A stretch of 64,000 bases of DNA from Geopsychrobacter electrodiphilus DSM 16401 (lineage in GTDB: Bacteria; Desulfobacterota; Desulfuromonadia; Desulfuromonadales; Geopsychrobacteraceae), in NCBI RefSeq assembly GCF_000384395.1, contig NZ_ARWE01000001.1, positions 186,001 through 250,000 on the forward strand, written 5' to 3'. Made by a program: the position numbers and the translations under genes. The notes beneath the pieces are model-generated. The model was given only the letters and a program-made list of their open reading frames with translations, was not told where the DNA came from and made no database searches. This document shows positions 14,202 through 29,397 of this stretch, one piece after another; the stretch's first letter is position 1; every line of letters starts with the position of its first letter.

Positions 14202-16337
14202 ATGTTTCTGGAATATTGGGGGAAAAAACGCCTGATTTTCAAAATCTTCGTCTGTGCCATGGTGCTCTTTTTGGTGCCGATCGGAGTGATATCCAATCTT
14301 ACTTTCCGGCACCTGCGCACAATCAAGGATGTTTCGCTTCAGGAGGTCAGAAATGCGCTACTCACAGCACAAATTGACTTTTTAAAAAACCACCTGGCGC
14401 AAAAAGCGGGAAAAATTTCCACGGAATTTTCAGATATCCGCGATGAGGTGCATCTGCTTAGCGCTTTGTCCCAGGCTATTTTGGAAAATCCGGACAATTT
14501 TCGGTATCGGAATGGCAGTCATTACCGGTTGGATGAGGTTGGTGATTACTCCAACCCGGTAGATGACGGAAATTCAAGTCTGTATGTCCCCCGGCGGCTG
14601 CCCTCATTGGATTCGCTGATTCCAGCGATGGAAAATTTCGGTAGCGCGAAGTCACCACGAAATATTCCAGAGTACAATACCTCGCTTGATTCGTTGATTT
14701 CGGCAACTGAAAGTTTGGATATTATCCTCAAGCCTTTGGTGAAATCAGAGCCACGGGTGGTTCTTGGATGGTTTATTCATAAAGATCTCATCAGTCGCAC
14801 TTACCCATGGCGGGATTTCAAGCATCTACCTCGCTACCCAAAGGTAACCTCCTGGCCTTTCTACTATCTTTCAGATCCTGCGCATAATCCCTCGAGGCAA
14901 GAGGTTTTTACTCCGGTCTACACCGATCCGTTGACGCAGGATAATATGATTTCCTGCTTATCTCCGGTCTTTGTCGGCGGGGAGCAACGCGCCACCGTTG
15001 GTGTTGATATCACCGTAGAAACTCTGCTCAAGGAGATTCGCCAGGTTCGTTTGACCGATGGCTCGAGCACCCTGCTCATGTCGCATGGTGAGATAATCGC
15101 TGCCTCTGAGAATCTACCCCTCGCCGTCCTTGGTTTGAATCCCACGCTACCTTCCGCTGGCCAGTCTCTTACGCCTGAGTTCCTTTCCGCAACAGGTCGG
15201 GCGGTCGTGGGGCCGAAGCGAGATAAGTTTGGCGTAGATTTCGTTAATACCCCAGAGTTAAGAGCTTATGTGGGATATGCCCAAGTCGAATCGTTAGGTT
15301 GGCAGCTTTTTCTTTTGGTTCCAGAAGAGGACCTGCTCGGCCCGGTGAATAAAAAAGCTCAAGCAATATTTTCAGAAACTGAGCGAATTCGGGGAAACTT
15401 CGTGCATTTTCTGGTTTTTGCCGTCCTCGCAATGGCAAGCATCGGCTATGTGGTGGTGGCCCACCAGTCTCGCGGGCTGCGCACCCTCCTGGCCGGCATT
15501 CGCGAATTCGGCCGCGGCAACCTTACCCACAGGGTCCGCGATGAAGGGACTGAGTTTGGCGACCTCAGCCAGGCCCTAAACTCCATGGCGGAGAGCCTTC
15601 TCGTGCAAAATCAGAAACTTGAAAAGGCAAACGCTGAAGTTGAACAGGGGCGCAAACTTACAGCTGTTGGTCGTCTGGCGGCCGGGGTGGCGCATGAGGT
15701 CAATAACCCTCTGGCGACCATCTCGACCTATACACAGCTCTTGCTGCGGCGTTCGGACCTTTCCGGTGAAGCCTCCGATAATTTGCAAAAAGTCATGGGT
15801 GAAATTGATCGCATACAACTAATATTGCGTAATTTCCTGAATCTCTCCCGTTTGCAGAAATTAGTAAAAACCAGAGTTAATCCGGATGTCCTGGTACGAG
15901 ATGTTGTCGAGATGGCCAGGCATGAAGCGGGTGCCATGGGGGTTGAGTTGCACCTGTTTCTCAGTGAAACCCCAGCGGATTGTTGTCTCGATCAGTCAGG
16001 CTTCAAGCAGATATTATGGAATCTATTGGGCAACGCCATCGCTTCTCAGACAGAGGCGGGACAGGTGCTGATTCGGACCAGCTACATTTTATCTGAAAGT
16101 GAATCATCCGTATTCATCCTTGAGGTCGAAGACGAGGGGCCAGGGATTTCGGAAGAGGTGATGCCGCATATCTTTGACCCCTTCTTTACGACCAAGGAGG
16201 TGGGGAAGGGGACGGGGCTTGGTCTGGCCGTTGTCAGCAGCATTGTTGACGGTCACCATGGCAGAATTGAGGTCCAAAACCTGAGCCCCAAAGGGTGCCG
16301 ATTTCGCGTGATATTTCCTGCAGGAGAGAGTGAATGA
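14202..16337 (+). CDS. Membrane sensor histidine kinase (Cache-HAMP-HisKA), likely amine-operon sensor
   Basis: 711 residues. A transmembrane helix at about residues 14-35 is followed by a ~380-residue periplasmic double-Cache-like sensor (SRTYPWRDFKHLP, FTPVYTDPLTQDNMIS, VGVDITVETLL). A second helix (FLVFAVLAMASIGYVVVA), HAMP, the HisKA box with His498 in AHEVNNPLATIS, and a HATPase domain (NLLGNAI, DEGPGI, GTGLGLAVV) follow. It phosphorylates the regulator encoded by the next gene, which overlaps it by ATGA. Its position just upstream of the amine dehydrogenase operon suggests it senses an amine or its product in the periplasm; that is inference. Confidence 0.88.
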   Translation: MFLEYWGKKRLIFKIFVCAMVLFLVPIGVISNLTFRHLRTIKDVSLQEVRNALLTAQIDFLKNHLAQKAGKISTEFSDIRDEVHLLSALSQAILENPDNFRYRNGSHYRLDEVGDYSNPVDDGNSSLYVPRRLPSLDSLIPAMENFGSAKSPRNIPEYNTSLDSLISATESLDIILKPLVKSEPRVVLGWFIHKDLISRTYPWRDFKHLPRYPKVTSWPFYYLSDPAHNPSRQEVFTPVYTDPLTQDNMISCLSPVFVGGEQRATVGVDITVETLLKEIRQVRLTDGSSTLLMSHGEIIAASENLPLAVLGLNPTLPSAGQSLTPEFLSATGRAVVGPKRDKFGVDFVNTPELRAYVGYAQVESLGWQLFLLVPEEDLLGPVNKKAQAIFSETERIRGNFVHFLVFAVLAMASIGYVVVAHQSRGLRTLLAGIREFGRGNLTHRVRDEGTEFGDLSQALNSMAESLLVQNQKLEKANAEVEQGRKLTAVGRLAAGVAHEVNNPLATISTYTQLLLRRSDLSGEASDNLQKVMGEIDRIQLILRNFLNLSRLQKLVKTRVNPDVLVRDVVEMARHEAGAMGVELHLFLSETPADCCLDQSGFKQILWNLLGNAIASQTEAGQVLIRTSYILSESESSVFILEVEDEGPGISEEVMPHIFDPFFTTKEVGKGTGLGLAVVSSIVDGHHGRIEVQNLSPKGCRFRVIFPAGESE

Positions 16338-17722
16338 GTACTGTTGCCCGTCCCCGAATTCTGGTGGTTGATGATGATAAGGCCTTGCTTGAGGCGCTGG
16401 TTCAGGCATTGAGGCAGATGGGTTATGAGGTGCTTGGCGAACACGATCCCTTAAAAGGCTTGGTTGGAATCGGTTCCTGGGATCCAGATGTCGTAATCTT
16501 TGATCTCAAAATGCCGGGGATGGATGGTCTAGAGTTGTTACGCCGAGCACTCCTGATCGAGCCTGAACTGCCGGTCTTGCTCCTGACCGCACACGCGACG
16601 ATAGAGACTGCTGTTCAGGCAGTGCGCAATGGGGCCTATGATTTTCTGGAAAAACCCTTCGACCTGACCAAAATCGAATTGACTCTGCAGCAGGCCCTCA
16701 ATTATCGCGGGCAAAAGCGGCGTTATCAATTGCTTGCCGAAACTACTGCCCGGATAGGGACTTTTGAAGGGATTGTCGGGGAAAGCGCCGCGATCCGCGA
16801 GGTCATTGAGGCTGTAACGGCGGTTGCCGAAACCGATTCCACGGTTCTGGTAACCGGCGAAAGCGGAACAGGTAAAGAGCTGGTCGCTCGTGCTGTCCAT
16901 GTTTCGGGTTCACGTAAGGAGAAACCCTTTATTACAGTTGACTGTGCTGCCATTCCCGATTCTCTGCTGGAAAGTGAGCTGTTCGGGCACGTCAAGGGCG
17001 CCTTTACCGGCGCATATCGAGAGCGGGCGGGCTATTTCGAAGCTGCAGCTGACGGTACTGTTTTCCTTGACGAGATTGGTGAGATCCCTCATGTCCTCCA
17101 AAAAAAACTGTTGCGGGTCCTGCAGGAAAAAACCTTTTCGCGCGTCGGAGAATCCCGACAACGAACCTCCGAAGCACGGATCGTGGCCGCGACCAACCGG
17201 AATCTTGAAAAATGGGTGGCAGAGGGTGGGTTTCGCGAGGATCTCTTCTACCGGCTCAAGGTGATCGAAATCCCTGTCCCCCCCTTGCGTGAGCGGTCGG
17301 AGGATATCCCCTTGTTGGTTCAACATTACCTCGGCCGACTCAACCGCAAGCTGAATCGTAAGATTCAGACGGTTAGCCCTGAAGTTATGGCTATTTTTCA
17401 ACGCTATCCCTGGCCTGGAAATATCCGGGAACTGGTCCACCTGCTTGAGCAGATCATGACCTTCCATAATCCGGAAAGACTTGATCCTCTTCATCTTCCG
17501 GCTTATTTGCGCAGCGACTCTATTTCGGCATTGCCCCCTGAATCTTATGCCAGCCTCAAAGAGAAATTACTCGCCGAAGTGGGCATCGAGTACTTCAGAA
17601 AACTGCTCGGTTATTATCGGGGCAATGTGACACGCGTAGCCGAGCACGCTGGGCTCAACCGCAGACATCTAAGTCGGTTGTTGCAGCATCTTGGCCTCGA
17701 TCCCGCCCTTTTTCGTAAATAA
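16334..17722 (+). CDS. NtrC-family sigma-54-dependent response regulator
   Basis: 462 residues. The receiver domain has the phosphorylated Asp in VVIFDLKMPGMDG and the switch Lys in FLEKPF. The AAA+ domain has Walker A GESGTGKE, the sigma-54 contact loop GAFTGA, Walker B DGTVFLDEIGE and the arginine-finger region. A Fis-type helix-turn-helix closes it (GNVTRVAEHAGLNRRHLSRLL). The intact GAFTGA means it can activate RpoN. Two dyads and a sigma-54 promoter lie right after it, so it most likely drives the amine dehydrogenase operon. This replaces the AraC-type QhpR known in Paracoccus. Confidence 0.92.
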   Translation: MSTVARPRILVVDDDKALLEALVQALRQMGYEVLGEHDPLKGLVGIGSWDPDVVIFDLKMPGMDGLELLRRALLIEPELPVLLLTAHATIETAVQAVRNGAYDFLEKPFDLTKIELTLQQALNYRGQKRRYQLLAETTARIGTFEGIVGESAAIREVIEAVTAVAETDSTVLVTGESGTGKELVARAVHVSGSRKEKPFITVDCAAIPDSLLESELFGHVKGAFTGAYRERAGYFEAAADGTVFLDEIGEIPHVLQKKLLRVLQEKTFSRVGESRQRTSEARIVAATNRNLEKWVAEGGFREDLFYRLKVIEIPVPPLRERSEDIPLLVQHYLGRLNRKLNRKIQTVSPEVMAIFQRYPWPGNIRELVHLLEQIMTFHNPERLDPLHLPAYLRSDSISALPPESYASLKEKLLAEVGIEYFRKLLGYYRGNVTRVAEHAGLNRRHLSRLLQHLGLDPALFRK

Positions 17723-17723
17723 T

Positions 17724-17739
17724 GAGACAATTTTGTCCC
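17724..17739. promoter_or_regulatory. Upstream activator site 1 for the sigma-54 promoter
   Basis: GAGACA-ATTT-TGTCCC, a 6-4-6 dyad with one mismatch, starting just after the regulator stop codon. Same half-site as the perfect dyad 40 bases downstream. Confidence 0.6.
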
Positions 17740-17763
17740 GGTTTCCCCTTGCTTTCCGCACCC

Positions 17764-17779
17764 GGGACATAGATGTCCC
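17764..17779. promoter_or_regulatory. Upstream activator site 2 (perfect dyad)
   Basis: GGGACA-TAGA-TGTCCC is a perfect 6-4-6 palindrome, centre 40 bases (about four helical turns) from site 1 and about 180 bases before the -24 element. This is the classic layout of NtrC-family enhancers. Confidence 0.65.
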
Positions 17780-17945
17780 GTCTCTCAGCTCAAGATAGGG
17801 CTATTAATGTCTCTATCTCCGTCCCTCAGGTCCACTTCGCTGAAAATAGATAGAACAGTGTTTATCCAATTCTGAAATAAAAATCCCTTTAGTTTAAGTA
17901 ACATACAATTGAATATCAGCAGTTTTATGCGCGATATATTTATTG

Positions 17946-17961
17946 TGGAACGTTGTTTGAA
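17946..17961 (+). promoter_or_regulatory. Sigma-54 promoter of the amine dehydrogenase operon
   Basis: TGGAACGTTGTTTGAA against the consensus TGGCACG-N4-TTGCW: the GG at -24 and the TTG at -12 are in the right register. The one -24 change is C to A and the -12 C is A. Transcription would start near 17972, about 48 bases before the first gene. Confidence 0.65.
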
Positions 17962-18019
17962 TATACCGAGGGCGAGTTAATGTCATTCGTCTTGCTACCA
18001 ATAAGGGAGGATCTGTGAA

Positions 18020-18868
18020 ATGAAAAAAACCGTAATTTCTTTGTGTCTGGGACTAACTTTTCTCTGGGTAAGTGCCGCCGGGGCCGTGCTGGTCGATCCC
18101 TACGACAATATTCTCCCCCCCGATGGGCTTTATGGCCTTTATTACGGCAATTACTACCAGGCGGATCGGATAAACGATGCCAGCGGCAACAAGGCGCTCG
18201 ACATCGATCTTACCGCGAAAGTCAGTCTTTTGCGTGGGCTCTATTATCACCATTTCGGGAAAATACCTATTGCGCTCCAGGTCATTGTCCCCTTTGGTGA
18301 AGTTAAAGAGACGAAGTTGCTGAATGAAAAATCCTCGGGTCTGGGAGATATCACCTTCGGTCCTGGCGTCTTTCTTTACACGAATGAAAAAAGTGGCACC
18401 TACCTTTCGTACTGGCTCTACCTGACAGCGCCGACCGGCGAGTGGAATATGAATCAAGCCATCAATCTCGGTCAAAACCACTGGTATTTTGAGCATCAGC
18501 TTGCCCTGGAGCAGTTGTGGAAAGGGTTCGTTTACGACATGAACCTGAACCTTTATCACCACAATAAAGAATCGGACAACAACTTCCAGGCGCCAAAGAG
18601 GTTCGAGGTGGAAGCCAGCCTGGGTTACCAGCTCACTGACAAGCTGATCCTGGGTGTGAATGGTGGCGGCTACTGGGATCTGGAGAATGGCAAGGTTGGC
18701 GGAAGCTCCGTTGCCGACACCAAGGCCAGAAGACTTCAATTCGGTCCGACCCTCGGCTATCAGGCCACCGAAAAGATTGGAGTCAATCTTCGCTGGACCC
18801 ACGATCTGAGCGCAAAAAACGATACCCAGGGAGATGATGTTTGGCTGCGACTGTCTTATGCCTTCTGA
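18020..18868 (+). CDS. Outer-membrane beta-barrel protein (phenol/MetA-degradation family-like)
   Basis: 282 residues with a signal peptide ending at SAAGA. The mature protein is a run of alternating aromatic/hydrophobic strands ending in WLRLSYAF, a C-terminal Phe typical of outer-membrane barrels. It resembles the Phenol_MetA_deg family of small barrels found next to catabolic operons. As first gene after the sigma-54 promoter it is a candidate uptake channel for the amine substrate, or for release of products. GGGAGG lies about 10 bases before the ATG. Confidence 0.7.
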   Translation: MKKTVISLCLGLTFLWVSAAGAVLVDPYDNILPPDGLYGLYYGNYYQADRINDASGNKALDIDLTAKVSLLRGLYYHHFGKIPIALQVIVPFGEVKETKLLNEKSSGLGDITFGPGVFLYTNEKSGTYLSYWLYLTAPTGEWNMNQAINLGQNHWYFEHQLALEQLWKGFVYDMNLNLYHHNKESDNNFQAPKRFEVEASLGYQLTDKLILGVNGGGYWDLENGKVGGSSVADTKARRLQFGPTLGYQATEKIGVNLRWTHDLSAKNDTQGDDVWLRLSYAF

Positions 18869-18929: not shown

Positions 18930-20492
18930 ATGCGAAATACACTGTTGATCCTGATCGCCCTGTTTTTTTCGATGGGGGTCCTCGCCCCCGGAGCCATGGC
19001 CTTCAGCAAAGATTCGTTGGTCTGGCAGAAGTGCACCGGCTGTCATGCGCCCAAGGCTAATAAAATCTCCAGGGTTGAAGAGCTACGCACCACACCCGAG
19101 GAGTGGGCGGTCATCGTCGATCGTATGGCCAGACTGCATGGGATGGATTTGAAGCCGGGTGAGATGAACCCGCTCATCAAAGAACTTTGCTCCACCCAAG
19201 GCCTGACGGCTGCGGAAGCTGCCCAGGTGAATTACCTCGATCTCTACAATAATCCACAAAATATTGAGAAACCACTGGCCACCGATCCGGAGAAGTTGTT
19301 TGTCACCTGCGTGCGTTGTCATAGTGCGGGGAAAATCCATTCTTACCGGATGACCGAATCCGCGTGGAAAAAGGTCCGCGACTTCCATCTCTACACAACT
19401 CCGACTGTTCTGAGTCAGATGCGGGAAATGAAATGGATTCCCGAGGCCGACGCCGTACTGGCGCAGCTGGCCAAGAGTCAACCCTATGGTGCCGCTCTGA
19501 AACCTTCTAAGAATTCACTCCCTGCATCATGGCTGATTCTGGGGTACGAACCCATCAAGGGGAATTATCGCGGACAGGCGTCGCTCAAAAAAACTGCCAA
19601 CGGGGATTATGCGGTAGTCGGTAATTTACAGTATGCGGACAACACGACCGAGAGCTTCAGCGGTGATGCCTCCCTTTATGGTGGTAGCGCTTTCCGGACC
19701 AATTTAGAGCGCAACGGTTTTAAAACGACAGGTGCTTTCGCCTTCGCCGACGGCATGCTGCGCGGCCAGCACAATTTCCCGGCGCCAAATTTTCGTAACT
19801 CAACCAGCAGTTGGTATCCCCAGAATGGCAAGTCACGCGTGCTCAAGCTGAGCCCCGGCTATCTGGTCGATGGTGAAACCACAACCCTGGTGCTGGAGGG
19901 GGTCAACCTGCCACAGGTGAAGACCGCTGATGTCACTACCACGAATGACGCTATAACAATCATCTCGTTAAAACAGTTGGGCACCAATGCCATTGAGGTC
20001 CAGGCTCTCTACCGTGGCAAAGGGGCGGCGCAGGCTAAACTCAGCGTTAAGGGGCTTGTAGCCGGGACGTTGAACCTGGTCGCGCAGATTGATTATATCG
20101 CCATCACCCCGGAGTTGGGGCGTGCCAGGGTCAGCGGCGGACCGCACTTTCCTTCGGAAGGGGTGCAGTTTGAAGCGATCGCCTATTCCAAAGGGACCAA
20201 CGCCGACGATCCGGCAGACGATGTAGCGCTGGGCCCGGTTGCCGCCAGCTTCACCTTGAAGGAGCTGGTGACCCGTCCCGGTGATGACGATCTGCGTTGG
20301 CTGGGAGATATCGGGGCCGCCGGGACTTACATCCCTTCCAGCGACTATGGCCCAATCCCCGAAAGAGCATTTCATGCTGAAGGAACTGGTCTGGTCAAAG
20401 TCATGGCTGAGTATAAGAAAGACAAGCGCAGTTATTCGGCAGAGGCCAGGTTGGTGGTCACCGAACCCGACTTTATTCCAAGGATAAAGTAA
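18930..20492 (+). CDS. qhpA: Quinohemoprotein amine dehydrogenase alpha subunit
   Basis: 520 residues with a Sec signal peptide (cleavage near APGAMA). The N-terminal diheme cytochrome domain has CTGCH at 35-39 and CVRCH at 127-131. Three beta-sandwich domains follow, as in the Paracoccus/Pseudomonas alpha subunit (WLILGYEPIKGNYRG, LKLSPGYLVDGETTTL). In the periplasm it takes electrons from the CTQ of the gamma subunit and hands them to a soluble cytochrome. The ATG at 18930 is chosen because it begins the signal peptide and has AGAGGT upstream; the frame is open 32 codons further but without ribosome site. First of the conserved A-D-C-B gene order. Confidence 0.93.
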   Translation: MRNTLLILIALFFSMGVLAPGAMAFSKDSLVWQKCTGCHAPKANKISRVEELRTTPEEWAVIVDRMARLHGMDLKPGEMNPLIKELCSTQGLTAAEAAQVNYLDLYNNPQNIEKPLATDPEKLFVTCVRCHSAGKIHSYRMTESAWKKVRDFHLYTTPTVLSQMREMKWIPEADAVLAQLAKSQPYGAALKPSKNSLPASWLILGYEPIKGNYRGQASLKKTANGDYAVVGNLQYADNTTESFSGDASLYGGSAFRTNLERNGFKTTGAFAFADGMLRGQHNFPAPNFRNSTSSWYPQNGKSRVLKLSPGYLVDGETTTLVLEGVNLPQVKTADVTTTNDAITIISLKQLGTNAIEVQALYRGKGAAQAKLSVKGLVAGTLNLVAQIDYIAITPELGRARVSGGPHFPSEGVQFEAIAYSKGTNADDPADDVALGPVAASFTLKELVTRPGDDDLRWLGDIGAAGTYIPSSDYGPIPERAFHAEGTGLVKVMAEYKKDKRSYSAEARLVVTEPDFIPRIK

Positions 20493-20494
20493 CC

Positions 20495-21886
20495 ATGAAT
20501 TACCTGTGGGCAGAGCATAGGGTTTTTCCGGCCGGCGATGGCGCGATTCTCTTCGGGGTGGATCATGCAAGTCTGTTTTTTATCGACGCGCAGACGCGCG
20601 AGGTTCTGCAGCGCTTGGGTTCTCGACCCTCCCTGAATCTTAGCGAGACAGCCCCGCAGGATCGAGAGATTCTGTCCGGGTTGCGAGAAGCGCGTTTTTT
20701 ACGGCCGGAAATCACCATGGAAAGACCCGCTCCAGTGCTACCTGATCCACAGGGGATTCCCTTGGCGACTATGGTATTGGAAGTGGCGCAGGATTGTAAT
20801 CTGCGCTGCACCTACTGCTACGCTGAAGGCGGCGGCTACGGCGGCGAAAGGCGCCTGCTCACTCCACAAACAGCCCGCAAGGCCGTTCGTCTTCTACTCA
20901 GAGAAGCGGCCGATCGCGAGGTCGTGACTCTGGTGCTGTTTGGCGGCGAGCCGCTACTCAACATGCCGGCGGTCAAAGCTGCGATCGAAGAGGCGGTCCT
21001 TAAAGGGGGGGAGGCAGGGAAAAAAGTCCAGATATCGCTGACCACCAACGGCACCCTGCTTAGCCCTGAGATTATCGCCTTCTTGCACCACCATCGTGTC
21101 GGCGTTTCAATCAGCCTCGACGGTCCTCCTGACCTGCACGATGCCAACCGTCCCGATATCAGCGGACGGGGAAGCTACACCAGAATCCTGCCGAAGCTGC
21201 TGCAGCTGTTGCACAACACCCCGGCGCCGGTTGGCGCGCGGGTGACCCTGATCCCGAATCAATGGAGCCGCATCGAAGAGGTCTACGATCACTTGATCAG
21301 TCTCGGCTTTCATGAGGTCGGCATTGCCCCGGCCAGTCCGATTACCAACGAACTGCTTCCCGACAGCGACCAGGAAGAGATCCTTCTCCAGGGTTTTGCC
21401 ACCATGGCTCGCCGCTTCAAGGAGGAGGCTGAAAAAGGCCGGATTCTCCCGTTCAGCAACATTCTCGACCTGCTCGGTCGGCTCCATCTGGGACAGACGA
21501 AATCGATCGCCTGTGGCGCGGGCTTCGGTTATCTGGCGGTCGATGCCGCTGGCGACTTCTTTCCTTGTCACAGGTTAGCCGGCGAGGAGATCTTTCGCGT
21601 CGGCGACCTTGATTCAGGTATCGATATGCACAAAATCAGCGCCAGCCTGGCAACACTCACCGAAGGGAAAGCCCAAATGTGCTCGGACTGCTGGGCCCGA
21701 ACCCTCTGTGCCGGGGGCTGCCACTACGAGAACCATCTCCGGGAGACCAAATTGGGAATGCCCCCGGGGGGCAGCTGTCATTTTATCCGCAGCTGGTTGC
21801 AGCTCGGTATCGAACTTTATGCTGAATTGCGCAGAACGGGCGCCGAGGCCCTGCTTGAGAGGCTAGAGAAACGGATCGCTGGTTAA
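20495..21886 (+). CDS. qhpD: Radical SAM/SPASM maturase QhpD (thioether crosslinks)
   Basis: 463 residues. The radical SAM cluster motif CNLRCTYC is preceded by the strand VLEVAQD; GGEPLL follows. The C-terminal SPASM domain binds auxiliary clusters (CGAGFGYLAVDAAGDFFPCHR, CSDCWARTLCAGGCHYEN). In characterised systems QhpD makes three Cys-to-Asp/Glu sulfur-carbon links within the gamma subunit precursor in the cytoplasm. It starts two bases after the qhpA stop and precedes its substrate gene. Confidence 0.94.
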   Translation: MNYLWAEHRVFPAGDGAILFGVDHASLFFIDAQTREVLQRLGSRPSLNLSETAPQDREILSGLREARFLRPEITMERPAPVLPDPQGIPLATMVLEVAQDCNLRCTYCYAEGGGYGGERRLLTPQTARKAVRLLLREAADREVVTLVLFGGEPLLNMPAVKAAIEEAVLKGGEAGKKVQISLTTNGTLLSPEIIAFLHHHRVGVSISLDGPPDLHDANRPDISGRGSYTRILPKLLQLLHNTPAPVGARVTLIPNQWSRIEEVYDHLISLGFHEVGIAPASPITNELLPDSDQEEILLQGFATMARRFKEEAEKGRILPFSNILDLLGRLHLGQTKSIACGAGFGYLAVDAAGDFFPCHRLAGEEIFRVGDLDSGIDMHKISASLATLTEGKAQMCSDCWARTLCAGGCHYENHLRETKLGMPPGGSCHFIRSWLQLGIELYAELRRTGAEALLERLEKRIAG

Positions 21887-21921
21887 CAAATTAACGATAT
21901 TTTTCACGAAAGGTAAAACTC

Positions 21922-22251
21922 ATGGATAAGAAAAGACGGATTGAGGCCTTGAACCTGAAAGCCAAAGCCATAGAAGCATTGGCCGAGGGGGAAGGAAAAA
22001 CGGTCGAGGCCCTTGCGGAAGGCGATCCCTTGAACATGCCGGTCGGCTGCACCACCATCTTTGATACCGGTTGGGAAACCAATCCACGCCCGGCCACTCC
22101 GGTCGGAAACTGCCTCTCTTCGGCGCGTGATTACGCCGGTTGTGCGGGTGATTGCTGGTGGCCAGCCCAGGTTCCAGACGGTCTCACCAACAGTCCTGAT
22201 TTCGATGTGGCCTGTCCCAATATCGCCCGGGACTGGCGCACTCTGAAATAG
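21922..22251 (+). CDS. qhpC: Amine dehydrogenase gamma subunit precursor (CTQ-bearing)
   Basis: 109 residues with a charged leader (about residues 1-36) containing a repeated EALAEG motif, no Sec signal. The catalytic core keeps all crosslink partners at family spacing: Cys43/Glu52, Cys64/Asp70, Cys78/Asp86, and Cys74 with Trp80 for cysteine tryptophylquinone, within GCAGDCWWPAQVPD. Three thioethers are made by QhpD; Trp80 must gain two oxygens to become the quinone. An extra Cys98 is not part of the known pattern. After leader cleavage it would be exported by QhpF and buried in the A/B/C heterotrimer. Confidence 0.94.
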   Translation: MDKKRRIEALNLKAKAIEALAEGEGKTVEALAEGDPLNMPVGCTTIFDTGWETNPRPATPVGNCLSSARDYAGCAGDCWWPAQVPDGLTNSPDFDVACPNIARDWRTLK

Positions 22252-22331
22252 TAAGGAGTTGCCGGCTGTTGACTCAGACACAGTGGCAACGCAGACGAAA
22301 ACCCTTCATTTTCAAACAACAGGAGTAATTC

Positions 22332-23342
22332 ATGGCTTTCAAAAAGTATTTATTTTTAGCAGCTTTGCTGCTTGGTACCACGCTGATCTGCAGTCGGGTC
22401 GAGGCCAAAGACCTGATATTCCAGATGGGGAACGAGATGATTCAGGTTATCGATGCCGACACCGATCACATCACCAACATCCCGATGAAGGGCGCTGCCC
22501 GTGATTCGTCTTTTACCGCTGACAAGAAGTTTCTCTATGTCACCGGCAGTCGCAGAGTCATCAACAAGCTTGACCTGCAAAAGATGAAGATCGTCAAAAG
22601 TATCAACGTCGAAAAAAAGGGCTGGGAGCGTTTCATCTACGGGATGGCGATCAGCCAGGATGGCAAGACCGGTTACGTGAGTGTTTTCTCCCGCCGCACC
22701 GAAAATGGTGAGGCGATCATCGGTGCGCCTGAGGTGCTGCAGATCAATCTCGACAACGGCAAAATACTGCGCAGCCTGAAAATCCCCTTCGGCGTGGTCA
22801 GCCTCTGCCTGGTCGAAAATGACACCAAACTCTATGCCGTCGGCCAGGACATTTTTACCATCGACCTCAGCCACAAGCAGATGAAAATAGTGGACACCAT
22901 CCCCATGTTTGATAAGGGGATGAACATTCTGGCCTTATGGAACTACACCGAGGAGAACGGTGGCGTCTGGCTCTCTCCCTACTACTCAGCCGAGGGGATG
23001 GGTCTGCTGAGCATCGATACCAAGACCGGCAAGGTCAACGAGACCATGCTCAAGGGCGAGCCGCCTTTCGCCTATAACGCCATTTATTCACCCGATAAGA
23101 CCAAGGCCTATGCGGTTATGGATGAGGTGGCGGTCATCGATCTGAAAACCAGAACCTACAGCAAAATTGTTCCCATTCCCGAAGGGACCTGCTACGGCAT
23201 CATGCCGACCACCGACGGCAAGAAACTCTACGTCGGCGCAGGGGGCTCGACGATTACAGTCTTCGATGTCGCCAGCATGAAGCCGATCAAGGTGTTGCAG
23301 ATGGAAACCGATGCCATGGGTTTGCGACGCTTGACGCTCTAA
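22332..23342 (+). CDS. qhpB: Amine dehydrogenase beta subunit
   Basis: 336 residues with a signal peptide (LICSRVEA cleavage). The mature protein is a seven-bladed propeller of YVTN-like repeats (FLYVTGSRRVINKLDL, KLYAVGQDIFTIDL, KKLYVGAGGSTITVFD). In the known enzyme this propeller holds the gamma subunit with alpha. It ends the structural block: a strong terminator follows 12 bases later. Confidence 0.92.
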   Translation: MAFKKYLFLAALLLGTTLICSRVEAKDLIFQMGNEMIQVIDADTDHITNIPMKGAARDSSFTADKKFLYVTGSRRVINKLDLQKMKIVKSINVEKKGWERFIYGMAISQDGKTGYVSVFSRRTENGEAIIGAPEVLQINLDNGKILRSLKIPFGVVSLCLVENDTKLYAVGQDIFTIDLSHKQMKIVDTIPMFDKGMNILALWNYTEENGGVWLSPYYSAEGMGLLSIDTKTGKVNETMLKGEPPFAYNAIYSPDKTKAYAVMDEVAVIDLKTRTYSKIVPIPEGTCYGIMPTTDGKKLYVGAGGSTITVFDVASMKPIKVLQMETDAMGLRRLTL

Positions 23343-23354
23343 TTAACCACTGGT

Positions 23355-23402
23355 GCGGAGCCGAAAAATCTGCATGCGGATTTTTCGGCTCCGCGTTTTT
23401 TA
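23355..23402 (+). terminator. Strong intrinsic terminator between structural and maturation genes
   Basis: GCGGAGCCGAAAAATC pairs perfectly with GATTTTTCGGCTCCGC (16 base pairs, 8-base loop), followed by GTTTTTTAT. It would end most transcripts after qhpB, leaving lower expression of the downstream maturation genes. Confidence 0.9.
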
Positions 23403-23417
23403 TCTTGAAAGGCGGAT

Positions 23418-24242
23418 ATGGAATACGGCATACGTCTCTCTCGCCCGGTCTTGCCCTTAGATGATCCGCGGCAGTGGTGCCCGAAGAAATGGCGAGACTT
23501 GCTGCCTGACGGTCCCTTGACCGCCGTTTATTTTGGTTCCGAGTTCTGTCAGGATCTGCTCCCCGCGGCCAAAGAGGCGGAAGCGTTCTGCGTGCTGGCC
23601 ACGGAAGCTGGCCTGGAAGCGGTCCTGCTGACTCCACCGGTCAGAACGGATGGGCTGCACCGGATTCAAACCCTGGTCAGCGCCCTTACAACCCGGGGTT
23701 ATGCGCCGACCATTGTGTTTAATGACTTTGGGGTGCTGCACCTGCTGCGCAGCGCGCACCCCGCAAGTAAACGCCAGGCCGGCCGACTCCTCAATCGCGC
23801 CCTCAGAGATCCGCGACTTGTCGAAGAGTCGCCTGCAGCACAACGCCCAGAGACGGCCAGGGGGGGTCAGCTACGCACGCTGCTGCAGCGTTACGGTGTC
23901 GCAGGTCTGGAGACCGATCCCGACCTGACCGGGGGGTATCTCGGTGAACAGATGAGTGGTCTGCAGCGGGTATTGCATCTCCCCTACACCTTTGTGGCCT
24001 CGGGCCGCAACTGCCTGTTCAAGGCCGAAAGCAACAACGATCAAATGAATTTCGCCACTGGGTTGACCAATTCCTGTTCAGCGTCCTGCCGGGACCGCTG
24101 GCAGCAGGAGGAGCGCCAGGATCTTGCCTTTCCCCTCTGGCGGGCTGGGAACACACTTTTCTACGAAGCGCATCAAGCCGCGGTCGAAGCACATCTGGAC
24201 CAGGTTGACAGAATTGTCGTCCACGAAAGGCCGTTGGCATGA
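23418..24242 (+). CDS. UbiV-like peptidase-U32 family Fe-S protein, candidate O2-independent hydroxylase subunit
   Basis: 274 residues. The fold pattern follows U32 proteins: AVYFGSEFC, EAVLLTPPV, PTIVFNDFGVLHLL, YGVAGLETD, and TFVASGRNC. The cysteines Cys44, Cys199, Cys220 and Cys224 (C...C-x20-C-x3-C, with the first in a YxGxxxC turn) match the 4Fe-4S ligands of E. coli UbiV (GEAVC, then C-x12-C-x3-C). UbiU/UbiV hydroxylate the ubiquinone ring without O2. The gene begins the maturation half of the operon and overlaps the UbiU-like gene by ATGA, which suggests a heterodimer. I infer it helps to hydroxylate the CTQ tryptophan; QhpG, the O2-using enzyme for that step, is absent. Confidence 0.75.
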   Translation: MEYGIRLSRPVLPLDDPRQWCPKKWRDLLPDGPLTAVYFGSEFCQDLLPAAKEAEAFCVLATEAGLEAVLLTPPVRTDGLHRIQTLVSALTTRGYAPTIVFNDFGVLHLLRSAHPASKRQAGRLLNRALRDPRLVEESPAAQRPETARGGQLRTLLQRYGVAGLETDPDLTGGYLGEQMSGLQRVLHLPYTFVASGRNCLFKAESNNDQMNFATGLTNSCSASCRDRWQQEERQDLAFPLWRAGNTLFYEAHQAAVEAHLDQVDRIVVHERPLA

Positions 24243-25207
24243 AGCTGCTTGCTCCGTTGCGAAATTCCTCCGAAGTGGAACCCCTGTTGGCGGCCGGGGC
24301 AGAGGAATTCTACTGTGGCATAACCCCTCCTGCATGGCAGACGCGGTTCAGTCACAACTGGATCAATCGCCGCTCCCCCGGTTCGGCCGGGATCGACGAT
24401 TTTGCTGATTTGCAGCGGATTCTGCTCCAGGCTGCAGGCCGTCCCGTTTACGTCACCCTCAACGCCCCATTTTACCCGGCCGGGTCGTTGGAACTACTGG
24501 TCGAGTTCAGTGCCGAACTCCTTGCCGCGGGGGTCGCCGGGCTGATCGTCGCCGACCTCAATCTGCTCCTAAGTCTGGTTGAAGCAGGGCTGGCCGCCAA
24601 AATTCACCTCTCAAGTCTTGCCACCTGCACCAACCAAGGCGCTGCGACATTTTTTCAGGAACTGGGGGTGTCCCGGGTCATCCTGCCGCGCCACCTGACC
24701 CTGGATGAAATCGCGTCGAGTCTGGTCCCCGGGCTCGATTTTGAGGTCTTCCTGCTGAATGACGGCTGCGTCTTTGAAGAGGGTCTCTGCGCGACCACCC
24801 ACGCCGCCGGGGCCTTCTGTCTGAACGATGGTGAAGCTGTACCGGGGATCTCAGCGCAGACCCTGGAGGGGTACGCCTTCTGGAAGTGGACCCTGAACCA
24901 TTGTGGCTGCAAAACCAATCATGGCTATCCTCTCGGACCCTGTGGCCTGTGTGCTTTACCGAGGTTGCGGCATATGGGCATCAGCAGCCTGAAGGTGGTG
25001 GGGCGTGAGGCCTCACTGCCGCGGAAGCAGGCCGCGGTCAGCCTGGCCGCCCAGGCGCTGCGCCTGGCGCGTTCCGGTGCTGGTCCGGAGGAGATTCGCG
25101 ACAGGGTGATTGAACTGCGCGGTGGCGCGGCCCTCTGTCAAGGGAGGCACCTCTGTTACTATCCCGAGGTGTGGGCCGCGGCGCAATCCGGGGAGGGCAG
25201 ATGCTGA
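24239..25207 (+). CDS. UbiU-like peptidase-U32 family Fe-S protein, candidate O2-independent hydroxylase subunit
   Basis: 322 residues. U32 hallmarks in order: LLAPLRNSSEVEPLLAAGA-EFYCG, VYVTLNAPFY, GLIVADLNLL, KIHLSSLATCTNQGAA, SRVILPRHLTLDEI, then the cysteine region Cys177-x6-Cys184-x9-Cys194, Cys222, Cys224, Cys235 and Cys238, and finally SSLKVVGRE. UbiU has the same C-x6-C element (Cys169, Cys176), two later cysteines, and the same IxSVKIEGR-type strand. The protein therefore most likely carries a 4Fe-4S cluster and works with its UbiV-like neighbour. It is not expected to be a true protease. The role in CTQ formation is inferred from operon context. Confidence 0.78.
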   Translation: MKLLAPLRNSSEVEPLLAAGAEEFYCGITPPAWQTRFSHNWINRRSPGSAGIDDFADLQRILLQAAGRPVYVTLNAPFYPAGSLELLVEFSAELLAAGVAGLIVADLNLLLSLVEAGLAAKIHLSSLATCTNQGAATFFQELGVSRVILPRHLTLDEIASSLVPGLDFEVFLLNDGCVFEEGLCATTHAAGAFCLNDGEAVPGISAQTLEGYAFWKWTLNHCGCKTNHGYPLGPCGLCALPRLRHMGISSLKVVGREASLPRKQAAVSLAAQALRLARSGAGPEEIRDRVIELRGGAALCQGRHLCYYPEVWAAAQSGEGRC

Positions 25208-26955
25208 AAGGGATAAAACTCTTTACCCGTCATCTGCGCGGCAAGAAGGGATTGCTGGCGGCGGTGTTTATTCTCGGCCTGGCCGGTTCGGCGTCATCCC
25301 TGGCGACCCCTCTGATCGGCAAGAGCTTTATCGACGCCGTCGCCGAGCGCAGGGATTTTTCCAGTGTGCCCTTGATCGCCGCCGCCCTGCTCGGCCTGGC
25401 TGTAGTTGACTTGCTGCTGGGAACTCTGACCCGGGTGGTGCATACCAAACTTTCGGCCGTGGTGTTGGTGGAGATCAGGGCGCGACTTTTCGCCCACTGC
25501 GTCAACGCACCGCTGGAGGCGCTGGAAAAATTTCGCCACGGCGATCTGTTGAGCCGGTTCGGCACCGATATTTCCAAGATCCAGACCCTTCTGGTCGACG
25601 GGGCCCTCGGGTTTATTCAGAACCTGATCTTTCTGGTTGTGGCAGCTACCATTCTGTTTAATCTCTCACGCCCTCTGGCGCTATGGTGTTTTCTCGGGAT
25701 TATCCTCGCGCTGATTATCACCGCCGCCTTCCGTCGTCCCATCGAAGCAGGGACCAGAGGTATTCGCGAGGTGATGGCCGGGCTCTCGCATTTCCTTTCA
25801 GAGCGGCTGGGTGCCTTGCGCGCCGTGCGCCTGCACAGCGCGCAGCAGGAGGAACAGCAGCGCTTTGGTCGACATAACACCAACCTGGTCAGCAAACTGC
25901 TGAAGTTTCAGTTTTTGGATGCGGCGGCGACCGGCCTGCCCGGCATCATCCTGACCGCGAACCTGGCCTGGATCTATCTGCTCGGCGGCGGGTTGTTGGA
26001 GCGCTCGGAGATCAGCCTGGGGACTTTTGTGGCCTTTATCCTCTACCAGGGGCGGCTGTACGGGCCTGCTCGGGGGCTGCTGGGGTTGGTGCGCAATCTT
26101 CAGGAAGTGCGCGTGAGCCTGGACCGGGTCACCGAGGTGCTCAGCGATGAAGGCGAGCCCTGCGGGCAGCCAGAAGCTGAGGCGGATGGTGAGGCGGGGG
26201 TTCGCCTTGAGGAGATCAGCTATGCCTATCCGGGCAACCCCCTGGTGCTGAACGGAGTCAGTCTGCAGATTGTGCCCGGAGAGCGGGTGGCACTTTTCGG
26301 TACCTCGGGCGCAGGCAAGTCGACCCTGATCCAGATCCTTTTCGGCCTGCGCCGCCCACAGCAGGGGCGAGTTTACCTGGGTGAAAAGAGCATCGGCTAC
26401 GCGGGGAGCGAGCCCTTTTTGTTGCATGCCTCAGTCGAGGAGAATCTGCGCTACGGCAACCCTCAGGCCAGCTTTGAAGCTCTGGTGATTGCTGCGCGGA
26501 TCGCGGCGGCCCACGAATTTGTCGAGGGGCTGCCACAAGGCTATCAGACCATCATCGGCGGTCGAGGCCAGGCCCTCTCTGACGGACAGCGGCAGAGGCT
26601 GGGGATTGCTCGGCTGGTGTTGAGGCGGCCAGATATTCTGGTGTTTGACGAAGCCTTCTCAGCGCTGGATCCAGATACTGAAGCACGGGTGCGTCGTAAC
26701 CTTTGGAGCCATTTTCAGGAGAAGATCATTCTGGTGGTCACTCATCGGCTCGGAGGTTTGAATGAGTTTGATCGCCTGTGCCTGCTGCAGGAGGGTCGGC
26801 TGCGGCAGGTTGATGAACACCAACTTCTCGCCGCATTGGTGACAGCTTCCGCAGCTGAAGGCAATGTCGAATCAGAGCCGGGGCCGGGACGGACTGTCAG
26901 GGTTAAGCCGCCGCAGGGACATCCCCCGCTGGAAGTGGCACGGAGATCGGCATGA
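25201..26955 (+). CDS. qhpF: ABC exporter QhpF for the gamma subunit
   Basis: 584 residues from ATG 25201, which overlaps the previous stop and has GGGGAGGG upstream. Six transmembrane helices (residues ~20-300) are followed by an ATPase domain with Walker A GTSGAGKST, signature LSDGQRQRL, Walker B ILVFDEAFSALD and H-loop VTHR. It is a half-transporter that would dimerise. In Paracoccus the matching QhpF moves the crosslinked gamma subunit across the inner membrane; the absence of a Sec signal on QhpC agrees. Confidence 0.88.
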   Translation: MLKGIKLFTRHLRGKKGLLAAVFILGLAGSASSLATPLIGKSFIDAVAERRDFSSVPLIAAALLGLAVVDLLLGTLTRVVHTKLSAVVLVEIRARLFAHCVNAPLEALEKFRHGDLLSRFGTDISKIQTLLVDGALGFIQNLIFLVVAATILFNLSRPLALWCFLGIILALIITAAFRRPIEAGTRGIREVMAGLSHFLSERLGALRAVRLHSAQQEEQQRFGRHNTNLVSKLLKFQFLDAAATGLPGIILTANLAWIYLLGGGLLERSEISLGTFVAFILYQGRLYGPARGLLGLVRNLQEVRVSLDRVTEVLSDEGEPCGQPEAEADGEAGVRLEEISYAYPGNPLVLNGVSLQIVPGERVALFGTSGAGKSTLIQILFGLRRPQQGRVYLGEKSIGYAGSEPFLLHASVEENLRYGNPQASFEALVIAARIAAAHEFVEGLPQGYQTIIGGRGQALSDGQRQRLGIARLVLRRPDILVFDEAFSALDPDTEARVRRNLWSHFQEKIILVVTHRLGGLNEFDRLCLLQEGRLRQVDEHQLLAALVTASAAEGNVESEPGPGRTVRVKPPQGHPPLEVARRSA

Positions 26956-27632
26956 ACAAAAGATTGGTTTTTGAAACCACAGGCTCTTTGCGCATCGGCA
27001 TTATCGACACGGGGGTCAACCCCTGGCATTCCCACGTGCGCGGTGAGGTGCGTGGACTCCGGATTTATTCAGACGCACAGGGAAGAATTCAGGAGGATGA
27101 GGACTTTCGGGACATGGTTGGTCACGGTACGGCCGTCGCCGGAATTCTGCGTCAGGGTCTCCCCGCCGCAGAACTTTTTGTGCTTCGCGTCTTTGATGGG
27201 GAGTTGAACTCCTATCCTTCATTGGTGGCTCGGGCGCTACTGCGAGCTGCTGCCGAGGGGTGTCAGATTATCAACCTCAGTCTGGGGATGCTTCATGGCT
27301 CGGGGGCCGAGGTCCTTGAACAGGCCTGTCGAACCGTTCTGGATGCGGGATCTGTGCTGGTGGCTGCTGGCCATCCGCAGAGGCCGGGTCTGCTTCCGGC
27401 GTCATTTCCTGGCGTGATCGGCGTAGTATCCGCTGAGCATCTGAAACCGGGGGAGATTGAGGTTAATCCGAATCGACCTTATTCATACCAGGCTTCGGGC
27501 TGGCCGCGCGACCTGGAGGGGCTGCCGCCAGGGGCCAATCTGTGGGGCAATTCTTTTGCCTGCGCCAGAGTCAGTCTCAATTTTGCCTTGAAAACTCCGG
27601 CCGGATTGAGGTCGTCGGAAGCGGTTATCTGA
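26952..27632 (+). CDS. qhpE: Subtilisin-like leader protease QhpE
   Basis: 226 residues, short for a subtilase and without signal peptide, so cytoplasmic. The catalytic triad is visible: Asp in IGIIDTGVNPWHSH, His in GHGTAVAGI, Ser in GNSFACARVS. The oxyanion Asn may lie in the VLVAAGHP region. In the known pathway QhpE removes the QhpC leader after crosslinking. It overlaps qhpF by ATGA. Confidence 0.9.
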   Translation: MNKRLVFETTGSLRIGIIDTGVNPWHSHVRGEVRGLRIYSDAQGRIQEDEDFRDMVGHGTAVAGILRQGLPAAELFVLRVFDGELNSYPSLVARALLRAAAEGCQIINLSLGMLHGSGAEVLEQACRTVLDAGSVLVAAGHPQRPGLLPASFPGVIGVVSAEHLKPGEIEVNPNRPYSYQASGWPRDLEGLPPGANLWGNSFACARVSLNFALKTPAGLRSSEAVI

Positions 27633-27675: not shown

Positions 27676-29397
27676 ATGAAGCATCTGCTGCGCATTAATA
27701 TGGAGAGTCAAACCACACTCAGCGAAACTGTCGACCAGAAATATGCACTTTTCGGAGGGAGAAGTTTGATCGCCCAAATCCTCAACCAGGAGGTTGATGC
27801 CAGGGTAGTTCCCCTTGGTTCAGAAAATAAACTCATCCTTTGCCCCGGACTGTTTGTTGATACCGCGGCACCCTGCTCCGGGCGCATTTCGGTGGGGGGA
27901 AAGAGTCCACTGACCAAAACGATTAAGGAAGCCAACGCCGGCGGGACCATGGCTAAAAGAATGGCCGCCTTGGATTTGCATGGACTGGTTTTGGAGGGTC
28001 AGCCACCCAAGGACAAATGGTTTGTGCTGGTGGTGGATGCCTCTGGGGTCGAGTTTTTGTCGGCTCAGACTTACCTTGGAATGAACAACTACCAACTTGG
28101 GGAAGAGTTGAGAAAAAAGATGGGGAGTGATATCTCCATCGCTTCGATCGGTTTGGCCGGAGAACGGGGCTATTTGAACGCTTCGATTCAATTTACCGAC
28201 CTTGACGGGCACCCTTCCCGGGCCGCTGCGCGCGGTGGCCTCGGTGCCCTGATGGGCTCCAAGGGGGTGAAAGCGATCGTCTTCAAGGATCCGGAGACGA
28301 CGGATTGGGCGTATGTGGCCAAAGCGAATTTTGTTGCGGCCAACAAGGCTTATGGCCAGGCTATTCTGGCGCACCCCTTTTCGGGACAGGGCCTGCCTGC
28401 GCTGGGGACCGCTCTTTTGGTTAACGTGACCAACGAAATGGGCATTTTGCCGACGCATAATTTCAGCAAGGGGCGTTGGGAGCATGCCGAAGAGACCAGC
28501 GGCGAGCGGATCGCCGAGCTGCAAGCAGAACGGGGCGGCAAGCAGACCCATGCCTGCCAGCGCGGCTGCACCATTCGCTGTTCCCAGGTCTATAACGACA
28601 AGGAGGGCAAATACCTGACCTCGGGGTTCGAGTATGAAACTATCGGGCTGTTCGGGGCGAACTGCGGAATTCGGGATATCGATGTTATCGCCAGACTGGA
28701 CAGACTTTGTGACGACCTCGGCGTCGATACTATGGACGCGGCCTGTGCGCTTGGCATGTGTATGGAAGCCGGTCTGATAGCCTTCGGCGATGCCGCGGGG
28801 GCCTTGCGTCTTGCGCAGGAGATGATCGAGGGCACCGAACTGGGGCGGATTCTTGGTAATGGGACTGAAGCTACCGGTAGACACCTCGGAGTAAAGCGGA
28901 TCCCTACGGTAAAAGGTCAGGCGATGGCGGCCTATGACCCCCGCGGGTTAAAGGGCACCGGGGTGACCTACGCGACAAGTCCTATGGGGGCCGATCATAC
29001 AGCTGGTTGCACAGTCGGCGACCAGAGTCTTGATGGAAGGTGCAAGGACGGGCAGGTCGAACTTTCGCGTAATCTGCAGATCATGATGACAGTCTTTGAC
29101 TCTCTGGGAATGTGTATTTTTTCCGGATTCTGCTGTGAAGATCCCAAGGTGCTCGGGTATCTGATCGATATGGCCGCTGCCAAGTTCGGCGGTGATTGGG
29201 ACGTCAACCGTCTCATGGGTCTCGGGGTACAGACCTTGCTCTTGGAAAAGCAGTTCAATAAGGCTGCCGGTTTTACCGAGAAGGACGACCGTCTGCCGCA
29301 ATTCATGTACACCGAGGTTCTCGAAACGGCAGGTACGACCTTTGATCTCACCACCGAGGATCTGGCCAAGACCCTCGCTTTTGGCGAATCAGTGTGA
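27676..29397 (+). CDS. aor: Aldehyde:ferredoxin oxidoreductase (tungsten, AOR family)
   Basis: 573 residues. The N-terminal domain has the AOR pattern GRSLIAQILNQEVD and APCSGRISVGGKSPLT. The 4Fe-4S ligands are CQRGCTIRC with the fourth in DSLGMCIFSG. AOR oxidises aldehydes to acids with ferredoxin as acceptor, using W-bis-molybdopterin, in the cytoplasm. It starts 43 bases after qhpE in the same direction, so it would oxidise the aldehyde released by the amine dehydrogenase. Its MoaD-like partner gene is decayed next door. Confidence 0.9.
   Translation: MKHLLRINMESQTTLSETVDQKYALFGGRSLIAQILNQEVDARVVPLGSENKLILCPGLFVDTAAPCSGRISVGGKSPLTKTIKEANAGGTMAKRMAALDLHGLVLEGQPPKDKWFVLVVDASGVEFLSAQTYLGMNNYQLGEELRKKMGSDISIASIGLAGERGYLNASIQFTDLDGHPSRAAARGGLGALMGSKGVKAIVFKDPETTDWAYVAKANFVAANKAYGQAILAHPFSGQGLPALGTALLVNVTNEMGILPTHNFSKGRWEHAEETSGERIAELQAERGGKQTHACQRGCTIRCSQVYNDKEGKYLTSGFEYETIGLFGANCGIRDIDVIARLDRLCDDLGVDTMDAACALGMCMEAGLIAFGDAAGALRLAQEMIEGTELGRILGNGTEATGRHLGVKRIPTVKGQAMAAYDPRGLKGTGVTYATSPMGADHTAGCTVGDQSLDGRCKDGQVELSRNLQIMMTVFDSLGMCIFSGFCCEDPKVLGYLIDMAAAKFGGDWDVNRLMGLGVQTLLLEKQFNKAAGFTEKDDRLPQFMYTEVLETAGTTFDLTTEDLAKTLAFGESV

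Follow-up and report, generated by a model that had tools for sequence, protein, structure and literature searches.

The stretch of 64,000 nucleotides analysed here (positions 186,001 to 250,000 of contig NZ_ARWE01000001.1 of Geopsychrobacter electrodiphilus DSM 16401; the window in the following) carries at 18930-27632 a qhp operon for a quinohemoprotein amine dehydrogenase (QHNDH), whose gamma subunit QhpC bears the cysteine tryptophylquinone (CTQ) cofactor. The genes stand in the order A-D-C-B-[V-U]-F-E, and the operon has no qhpG. It holds instead two further genes, for which we use the names qhpV and qhpU, and their products are candidates for the task of QhpG. The features are listed in the table.

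Features of the qhp locus, in window coordinates
Gene	Product	Position	Strand	Evidence
qhpA	Diheme alpha subunit of quinohemoprotein amine dehydrogenase	18930..20492	+	TIGR03908 E 7e-78, 262 bits (cut-off 274); Pfam Dehyd-heme_bind, Qn_am_d_aII, Qn_am_d_aIV
qhpD	Radical-SAM/SPASM maturase making thioether crosslinks	20495..21886	+	TIGR03906 E 3e-106, 356 bits (cut-off 453); Radical_SAM
qhpC	Gamma subunit, CTQ-bearing substrate	21922..22251	+	NF037958 125 bits (cut-off 50)
qhpB	Beta-propeller beta subunit	22332..23342	+	TIGR03907 E 5e-23, 82 bits (cut-off 223)
qhpV (name coined here)	TIM-barrel protein, proposed Fe-S partner of U	23418..24242	+	Four conserved cysteines; AlphaFold model
qhpU (name coined here)	UbiU-like U32-family protein, proposed O2-independent hydroxylase subunit	24239..25207	+	PF01136 97.5 bits; hhalign to UbiU
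qhpF	ABC exporter	25171..26955	+	ABC_membrane, ABC_tran; position in operon
qhpE	Subtilisin-like leader protease	26952..27632	+	NF049966 E 3e-39, 135 bits (cut-off 165)
AOR gene, 3' of qhpE	Aldehyde:ferredoxin oxidoreductase (AOR)	27676..29397	+	AFOR_N, AFOR_C

A first-pass annotation, made from the sequence alone, had listed qhpA, D, C, B, F and E in this order and at these coordinates, and this was confirmed by the family matches and the reading frames. For QhpA, QhpD, QhpB and QhpE the protein's own family model is the top match, yet all four scores lie below the equivalog cut-offs, so the operon appears to belong to a divergent branch of the family. Two CxxCH heme motifs (CTGCH and CVRCH) can be read from the translation of qhpA, and the CxxxCxxC motif is present in QhpD. 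The V and U frames overlap by 4 bases, while the start codon of qhpF is uncertain, its longest open reading frame overlapping U by 37 bases. The same arrangement, A-D-C-B-V-U-F with no QhpG in the stretch, was found in all eight QhpC-holding genomes among 136 of the window's order (own genome included); within these eight, qhpE is cut off in one locus (L018) and fused in one long frame with the following AOR gene in another (L022, seen in its copy L030).

QhpG has been characterised as a flavin adenine dinucleotide (FAD) peptidyl tryptophan dihydroxylase that takes both oxygens from O2 and is essential in operons of its type; in that pathway QhpD makes three thioether bonds, QhpG places two oxygens on the tryptophan, QhpE cuts the leader and export follows (PMC7876137). 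The QhpG-type QHNDH operons of Paracoccus and Pseudomonas putida have A, B, C, D, F and E, the CTQ tryptophan and cysteine and the three crosslink pairs in common with the operon described here, whereas the latter lacks the O2-dependent flavoprotein and contains the V-U pair instead. No QhpG relative was detected in the 4.24-Mb one-contig genome with one QhpG as query (itself matching PDB 7ctq at E 2e-153), the best match having E 0.04 over 35 residues. The first-pass annotation had reported QhpG missing from operon and window, and had named a homologue elsewhere in the genome as a finding that would count against its proposal; the genome-wide search leaves its statement standing. V and U match none of the Pfam and NCBIfam flavoenzyme families that would match QhpG. 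The reaction proposed for them would thus be that of QhpG (7ctq), on the same residue, although QhpG is an FAD/O2 enzyme and V-U fall outside the flavoenzyme families.

The expected substrate residues are kept in QhpC. Candidates for the crosslinks (C43/E52, C64/D70, C78/D86) and for CTQ (C74/W80) are in register with the QhpC of Paracoccus and Pseudomonas, and we take the cysteines to pair as C43-E52, C64-D70 and C78-D86. Crosslink and CTQ residues are intact in 65 of 65 QhpC rows (61 different mature cores), with C74 in one row as the sole exception. This set agrees with the three Cys-Asp/Glu thioether bonds and the Cys-Trp pair described for QhpC (PMC7876137).

Judged by its sequence, U is a UbiU-type U32 protein. 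Its score on PF01136 (cut-off 22.4) passes the Pfam gathering threshold for U32, and its best equivalog is UbiU (NF047963), at 60 bits against a cut-off of 440 and hence well short of membership. The UbiU likeness seen in the first-pass annotation is borne out by hhalign, which aligns U residues 1-261 with UbiU at 99.8% (E 1.5e-27) and pairs C177 with C169 and C184 with C176, two cluster ligands of UbiU and the first two of a C-X6-C-X16-C-X38-C set (PMC6747719). By their position C194 and C235 are likely the third and fourth ligands, at a spacing that differs from that of UbiU. These four, together with C238, C300 and C306, are invariant in 42 of 42 qhp-type rows. The last three cysteines, which distinguish U from UbiU as does the proposed protein substrate of V-U, may hold another cluster. 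When the single-chain AlphaFold model of U (predicted local distance difference test score, pLDDT, 84.3) was submitted to Foldseek, the solved U32 structure 5d88 was returned at rank 3 (E 3e-5), and most other matches were unrelated TIM barrels. A phmmer search of U and V against PDB sequences returned no U32 relative.

In V, cysteines C44, C199 and C220 are present in 41 of 41 qhp-type rows and C224 in 40 of 41 (the remaining row, L051, ends at a contig end). Their arrangement, C44...C199-x20-C220-x3-C224, resembles that of C39, C180, C193 and C197 in UbiV in order, with a middle spacing of 20 where UbiV has 12. The cysteines which the first-pass annotation had picked out, these four in V and C177-x6-C184 with later ones in U, were all found as described. 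The V and U profiles match each other at 91.5% (E 8.5e-7). V was modelled by AlphaFold as a single barrel-like chain (pLDDT 90.4; predicted template modelling score, pTM, 0.91); Foldseek with this model gave mostly generic TIM barrels, nothing below E 1e-3, and 5d88 at rank 6 (probability 1.00, E 4e-3). Kinship of V to the U32 family is therefore suggested by the TIM-barrel model and the profile match to U. Like UbiU-UbiV, the pair consists of two adjacent genes, the one aligning along most of UbiU and the other with a C...C-Xn-C-X3-C pattern.

To compare the occurrence of the pair and of QhpG, genomes were drawn by the QhpC model alone in five samples: 8 of 136 genomes of the window's order, 9 of 395 of its phylum (including its own genome, G000), 7 of 398 of the phylum of a Thauera genome (G547), 6 of 348 of the class of a Brevibacillus genome (G553), and 5 of 379 of the order of G547 (two new, two repeats, and G1620, which was left out since its QhpC match lay under the cut-off and contained a stop). 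This gave 31 distinct genomes, which include the search centres G547 and G553 and several genomes also found by a scan with V, each drawn by QhpC. An alignment of three QhpG sequences (in G000 a single one) served to search whole genomes for QhpG; V was looked for in the loci or genome-wide. The pair without QhpG was found in 23 genomes (one of them, G333, with part of V only, at a contig end, and U unchecked), QhpG without the pair in 7, both in 1 (Thauera sp. 28) and neither in 0. With the two search centres removed, the figures are 22, 7, 0 and 0, respectively, of 29. The distribution of pair and QhpG is thus complementary, and to this extent the proposal of the first-pass annotation that the pair hydroxylates tryptophan in QhpG's place is supported by comparative genomics, the activity itself being predicted from sequence. 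Weaker QhpG matches of 43-51 bits in G333, G356 (duplicate G543), G531, G536 and G545, and second matches of 44-47 bits in G706 and G1574, were considered as hidden QhpG and judged, by score alone, to be other FAD enzymes.

All 6 QhpC-holding genomes among the 348 sampled Bacilli have the pair and no detected QhpG. One of them is Brevibacillus massiliensis phR, a strain described as an obligate aerobe (PMC9424855). The pair is thus not confined to anaerobes, as it also occurs in Burkholderiales, in Thauera and in Bacillota including this aerobe, and the restriction to anaerobes made in the first-pass annotation was too narrow. That an aerobe should use an O2-independent enzyme is in keeping with the labelling result for UbiUV, which hydroxylates without O2 even in air and leaves no 18O2 label in the product (PMC10470549).

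A scan of named genomes with V alone gave 61 loci, of which 38 adjoin at least two qhp genes; U follows V directly in 37 of these, and the remaining one ends at a contig end. In five further loci (L056, L062, L064, L072 and L075) QhpC is found elsewhere in the genome, and L054, a short contig, carries V, U and F. The named carriers include Geobacter argillaceus, metagenome-assembled genomes (MAGs) of Geobacter and Desulfuromonadales, Rubrivivax and other Burkholderiales, Rhodocyclaceae and Gammaproteobacteria, and among the Bacillota Brevibacillus, Aneurinibacillus, Neobacillus and Calidifontibacillus. An all-against-all clustering of 36 pair loci left A, B, C, D, E, F, V and U as the only genes recurring widely (many of these loci had been found through V, whose own count is therefore set by selection, and U was clustered in 29 of the 36, the other seven having U in the locus scan). 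The next cluster, containing the window's sensor-kinase-like frame and sigma-54 regulator, reached 18 of 36 loci, AOR fell inside the E cluster via a fused frame in 8 loci, and the others did not exceed 8. Since no other gene is widely shared, V and U are left as the sole unexplained candidates to replace QhpG. In one genome (G212; loci L214, L103 and L104) a D-V-U-F run stands apart from two A-C-B loci, one of which adjoins a NapC/NirT-type cytochrome, an arrangement that links the pair with maturation and not with the mature enzyme.

We therefore propose, with a probability of about 0.82, that V and U together form the O2-independent peptidyl-tryptophan dihydroxylase of CTQ biogenesis and act in the place of QhpG. 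Gene content, the kept substrate residues and candidate cluster ligands, the U32 kinship of U, the TIM-barrel models and the complementary distribution are observed. The heterodimer, the Fe-S clusters, the hydroxylation itself, the oxygen donor and the order of steps are what we infer from them. QhpD would act first and crosslink QhpC by its three thioether bonds. V and U, with one [4Fe-4S] cluster each, would then bind the crosslinked QhpC as a heterodimer and dihydroxylate Trp80, as QhpG does elsewhere. On the model of UbiUV and of the U32 enzymes that modify RNA, the oxygen atoms would come from an organic donor, probably prephenate, and not from O2; the oxygen in anaerobic ubiquinone synthesis is said to derive from prephenate (PMC11574389). 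QhpE would thereafter cut the leader, QhpF export the product, and the hemes of QhpA complete the oxidation to the quinone.

Several points weigh against this proposal, which rests on sequence evidence throughout. V has no match in Pfam or NCBIfam, including the U32 family PF01136, and its profile reaches UbiV at only 4% in hhalign (E 0.01, residues 30-127), so that of the first-pass description of V as UbiV-like the cysteine pattern, a YxGxxxC motif and the TIM-barrel model stand, whereas similarity to the UbiV profile does not. The V and U models are single chains. The characterised U32 enzymes covered in PMC11574389 act on ubiquinone precursors or RNA, none on a protein. In 17 of the 61 V loci, distant V-like proteins occur without qhp genes in view (these genomes were unsearched for QhpC). 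QhpG could have been missed, given that one genome-wide scan scored the best 31 first-look candidates per genome and the other scan all; many sampled genomes are moreover fragmented, so that 'absent' may mean 'missed', the window's own genome being a single contig. QhpG and the pair occur together in four genomes, namely Thauera sp. 28, Thauera RX2, G551 (153 bits) and G555 (two partial pieces), in which another step for the pair is possible. Free co-occurrence of the two had been named by the first-pass annotation as an observation that would speak against its proposal, and they do co-occur in these four, though not freely. The pair-type operon of G472 (L095/L105) encodes a QhpC with Thr at the CTQ cysteine and a one-residue insertion before CWW. 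Its product cannot, from this sequence, be a normal CTQ, and may be either a quinone that lacks the bond to cysteine or a sign of decay.

The statistical weight of the distribution is also reduced by descent. Fisher's test for the complementarity of pair and QhpG gives p 3e-6, a figure that ignores descent and is overstated. On the QhpD tree there are 2 changes of QhpG and 3 of the pair, the complementarity being clumped by descent, and an independent-pairs test on this tree had no power. V and U distances track those of QhpD (Pearson 0.97 each, 28 loci), which reflects shared descent and not function.

The pair might instead serve another step of CTQ maturation, such as the final oxidation, a single hydroxylation or a change at another QhpC residue, with the tryptophan oxygens introduced by, for example, heme-driven oxidation in QhpA. 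The four genomes with both systems fit this explanation, as does an extra C-terminal cysteine that is present in the QhpC of the window's order and absent from three QhpG-type rows, and heme-driven remote modification of tryptophan is known for MauG (PMC7876137). Both kinds of operon, however, contain the diheme QhpA, and still QhpG is essential where it occurs (PMC7876137); moreover, 7 of the 8 sampled QhpG genomes lack the pair, which thus does nothing that those operons need. The genomes with both have a parallel in the O2-dependent and O2-independent ubiquinone hydroxylases that are found together in one species (PMC6747719). On balance we consider this explanation unlikely. A role for AOR or for the radical-SAM enzyme QhpD itself as the hydroxylase is very improbable. 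AOR follows qhpE in the window, and there are molybdenum and radical-SAM hydroxylases whose oxygen comes from water (PMC11574389), but an AOR relative occurs in only 16 of 69 qhp loci scanned, chiefly of Geobacter and Desulfuromonadales-type genomes, and is missing from every named Bacillota or Pseudomonadota locus among them; AOR was rejected as a general hydroxylase on this count. QhpD is present in both operon types although QhpG is essential in the operons that have it (PMC7876137), and V and U are the only widely shared genes without an explanation. AOR probably handles the aldehyde product of amine oxidation and is not counted in cofactor assembly.

That the pair is a relative of UbiUV or of TrhP1/P2, hydroxylating quinones or tRNA and merely sitting in the operon, is suggested by the U32 membership of U and its best equivalog. 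TrhP1-TrhP2 and RlhA belong to the same family, with a cysteine motif, dependence on prephenate and, in Bacillus, a hetero-pair (PMC11574389); these enzymes, in contrast, hydroxylate tRNA or rRNA. The U score is far below the UbiU cut-off, as given above, and 13 of 28 pair carriers examined have a separate UbiU over that cut-off, on which ground V-U was rejected as UbiUV. In a tree of U, 33 qhp-linked rows and 5 unlinked U rows from qhp genomes group together (Shimodaira-Hasegawa-like approximate likelihood ratio test, 91), apart from 13 UbiU rows (100); the tree carries long-branch warnings, and a fourteenth UbiU row, L126, is excluded from the count. Two Bacillota genomes, G549 and G559, have another adjacent U32 pair, separate from the qhp-linked U, and the linkage to qhp genes extends across Bacillota, Pseudomonadota and Desulfuromonadales-type genomes. 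The separate UbiU and the grouping of U apart from it make it unlikely that the pair is UbiUV or a stray, and we give this alternative little credence. Least credible of all is a degenerate operon that makes no CTQ and whose proteins serve something else. G472, without its CTQ cysteine, would suit it, but the frames are open, CTQ and crosslink residues are kept in all but one row, and in several phyla protease and exporter are retained in pair operons with enough sequence.

The order in which the O2-independent pair and QhpG arose can be approached through QhpD. In a careful QhpD tree, with rows L097, L105 and L173 left out, all QhpG rows fall in one 15-row clade (support 96/83), together with one pair-only MAG row (L192) and beside pair-only lineages. 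Because of this placement the tree, which is unrooted, suggests that QhpG came later, as an oxygen-dependent substitute. A wider and tentative reading, to which we give slightly less than even odds, is that the pair is the original O2-independent tryptophan dihydroxylase, spread over Desulfuromonadales-type genomes, Bacillota and Proteobacteria, that in one clade an O2-using replacement, QhpG, arose later, Thauera with both systems representing a surviving intermediate, and that U32 hydroxylases act on peptides.

If the pair acts as proposed, it would give the U32 hydroxylases their first known protein substrate, and would provide an O2-independent route to a tryptophylquinone cofactor, where flavin-, heme- or copper-assisted routes are the only ones described in the literature searched. 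A search of open-licence PubMed Central (subscription papers mostly, and preprints wholly, lying outside its scope) for work linking tryptophylquinone, QHNDH or QhpG with U32 or UbiUV found none by title, abstract or terms among the matches listed. QhpC, small and crosslinked in a defined way, could suit assays of how U32 enzymes move an oxygen atom better than the hydrophobic ubiquinone precursors. The proposal also touches the question of whether such quinone enzymes could have been assembled in the absence of oxygen or ahead of its appearance. Other U32 pairs with radical-SAM neighbours, as in the Clostridia locus L076, may then likewise hydroxylate peptides or natural products.

Upstream of qhpA, at 14202-18868 of the window, lie a sensor-kinase-like frame, a sigma-54 regulator and an outer-membrane MetA-pathway-like protein, and relatives of these regulators occur in 18 of 36 pair loci. 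In Thauera L059 an aldehyde dehydrogenase gene precedes V. Among plasmid records, 50 match QhpD and one matches V; the latter, from a Roseburia, is not among the 25 QhpD records listed. On the plasmid of Roseburia sp. 831b (L217, 5302-7990) a heavy-metal ATPase is followed by neighbouring genes for a V-like protein and a U32 peptidase. In L057, L063, L067, L078, L083, L084, L086 and L087 (Helarchaeota, Undinarchaeota, Omnitrophota and Elusimicrobia) U precedes V and no qhp operon is in view, the U matches being weak in the last four. V-like proteins without a detected U occur in the Desulfuromonadales-type loci L058, L065, L070, L077, L079 and L082 and in the window's own genome at C1:1049355 (L216); that of L058 adjoins an HflX-type GTPase, a LysM-lytic transglycosylase and an Smr protein. 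In L076 (8829-15128, uncultured Clostridia) a distant U-V pair has a radical-SAM gene directly behind it, then a carbamoyltransferase and a B12-binding radical-SAM gene, with no other qhp gene in view; this U32 pair, too, may have a peptide or natural product as its substrate.

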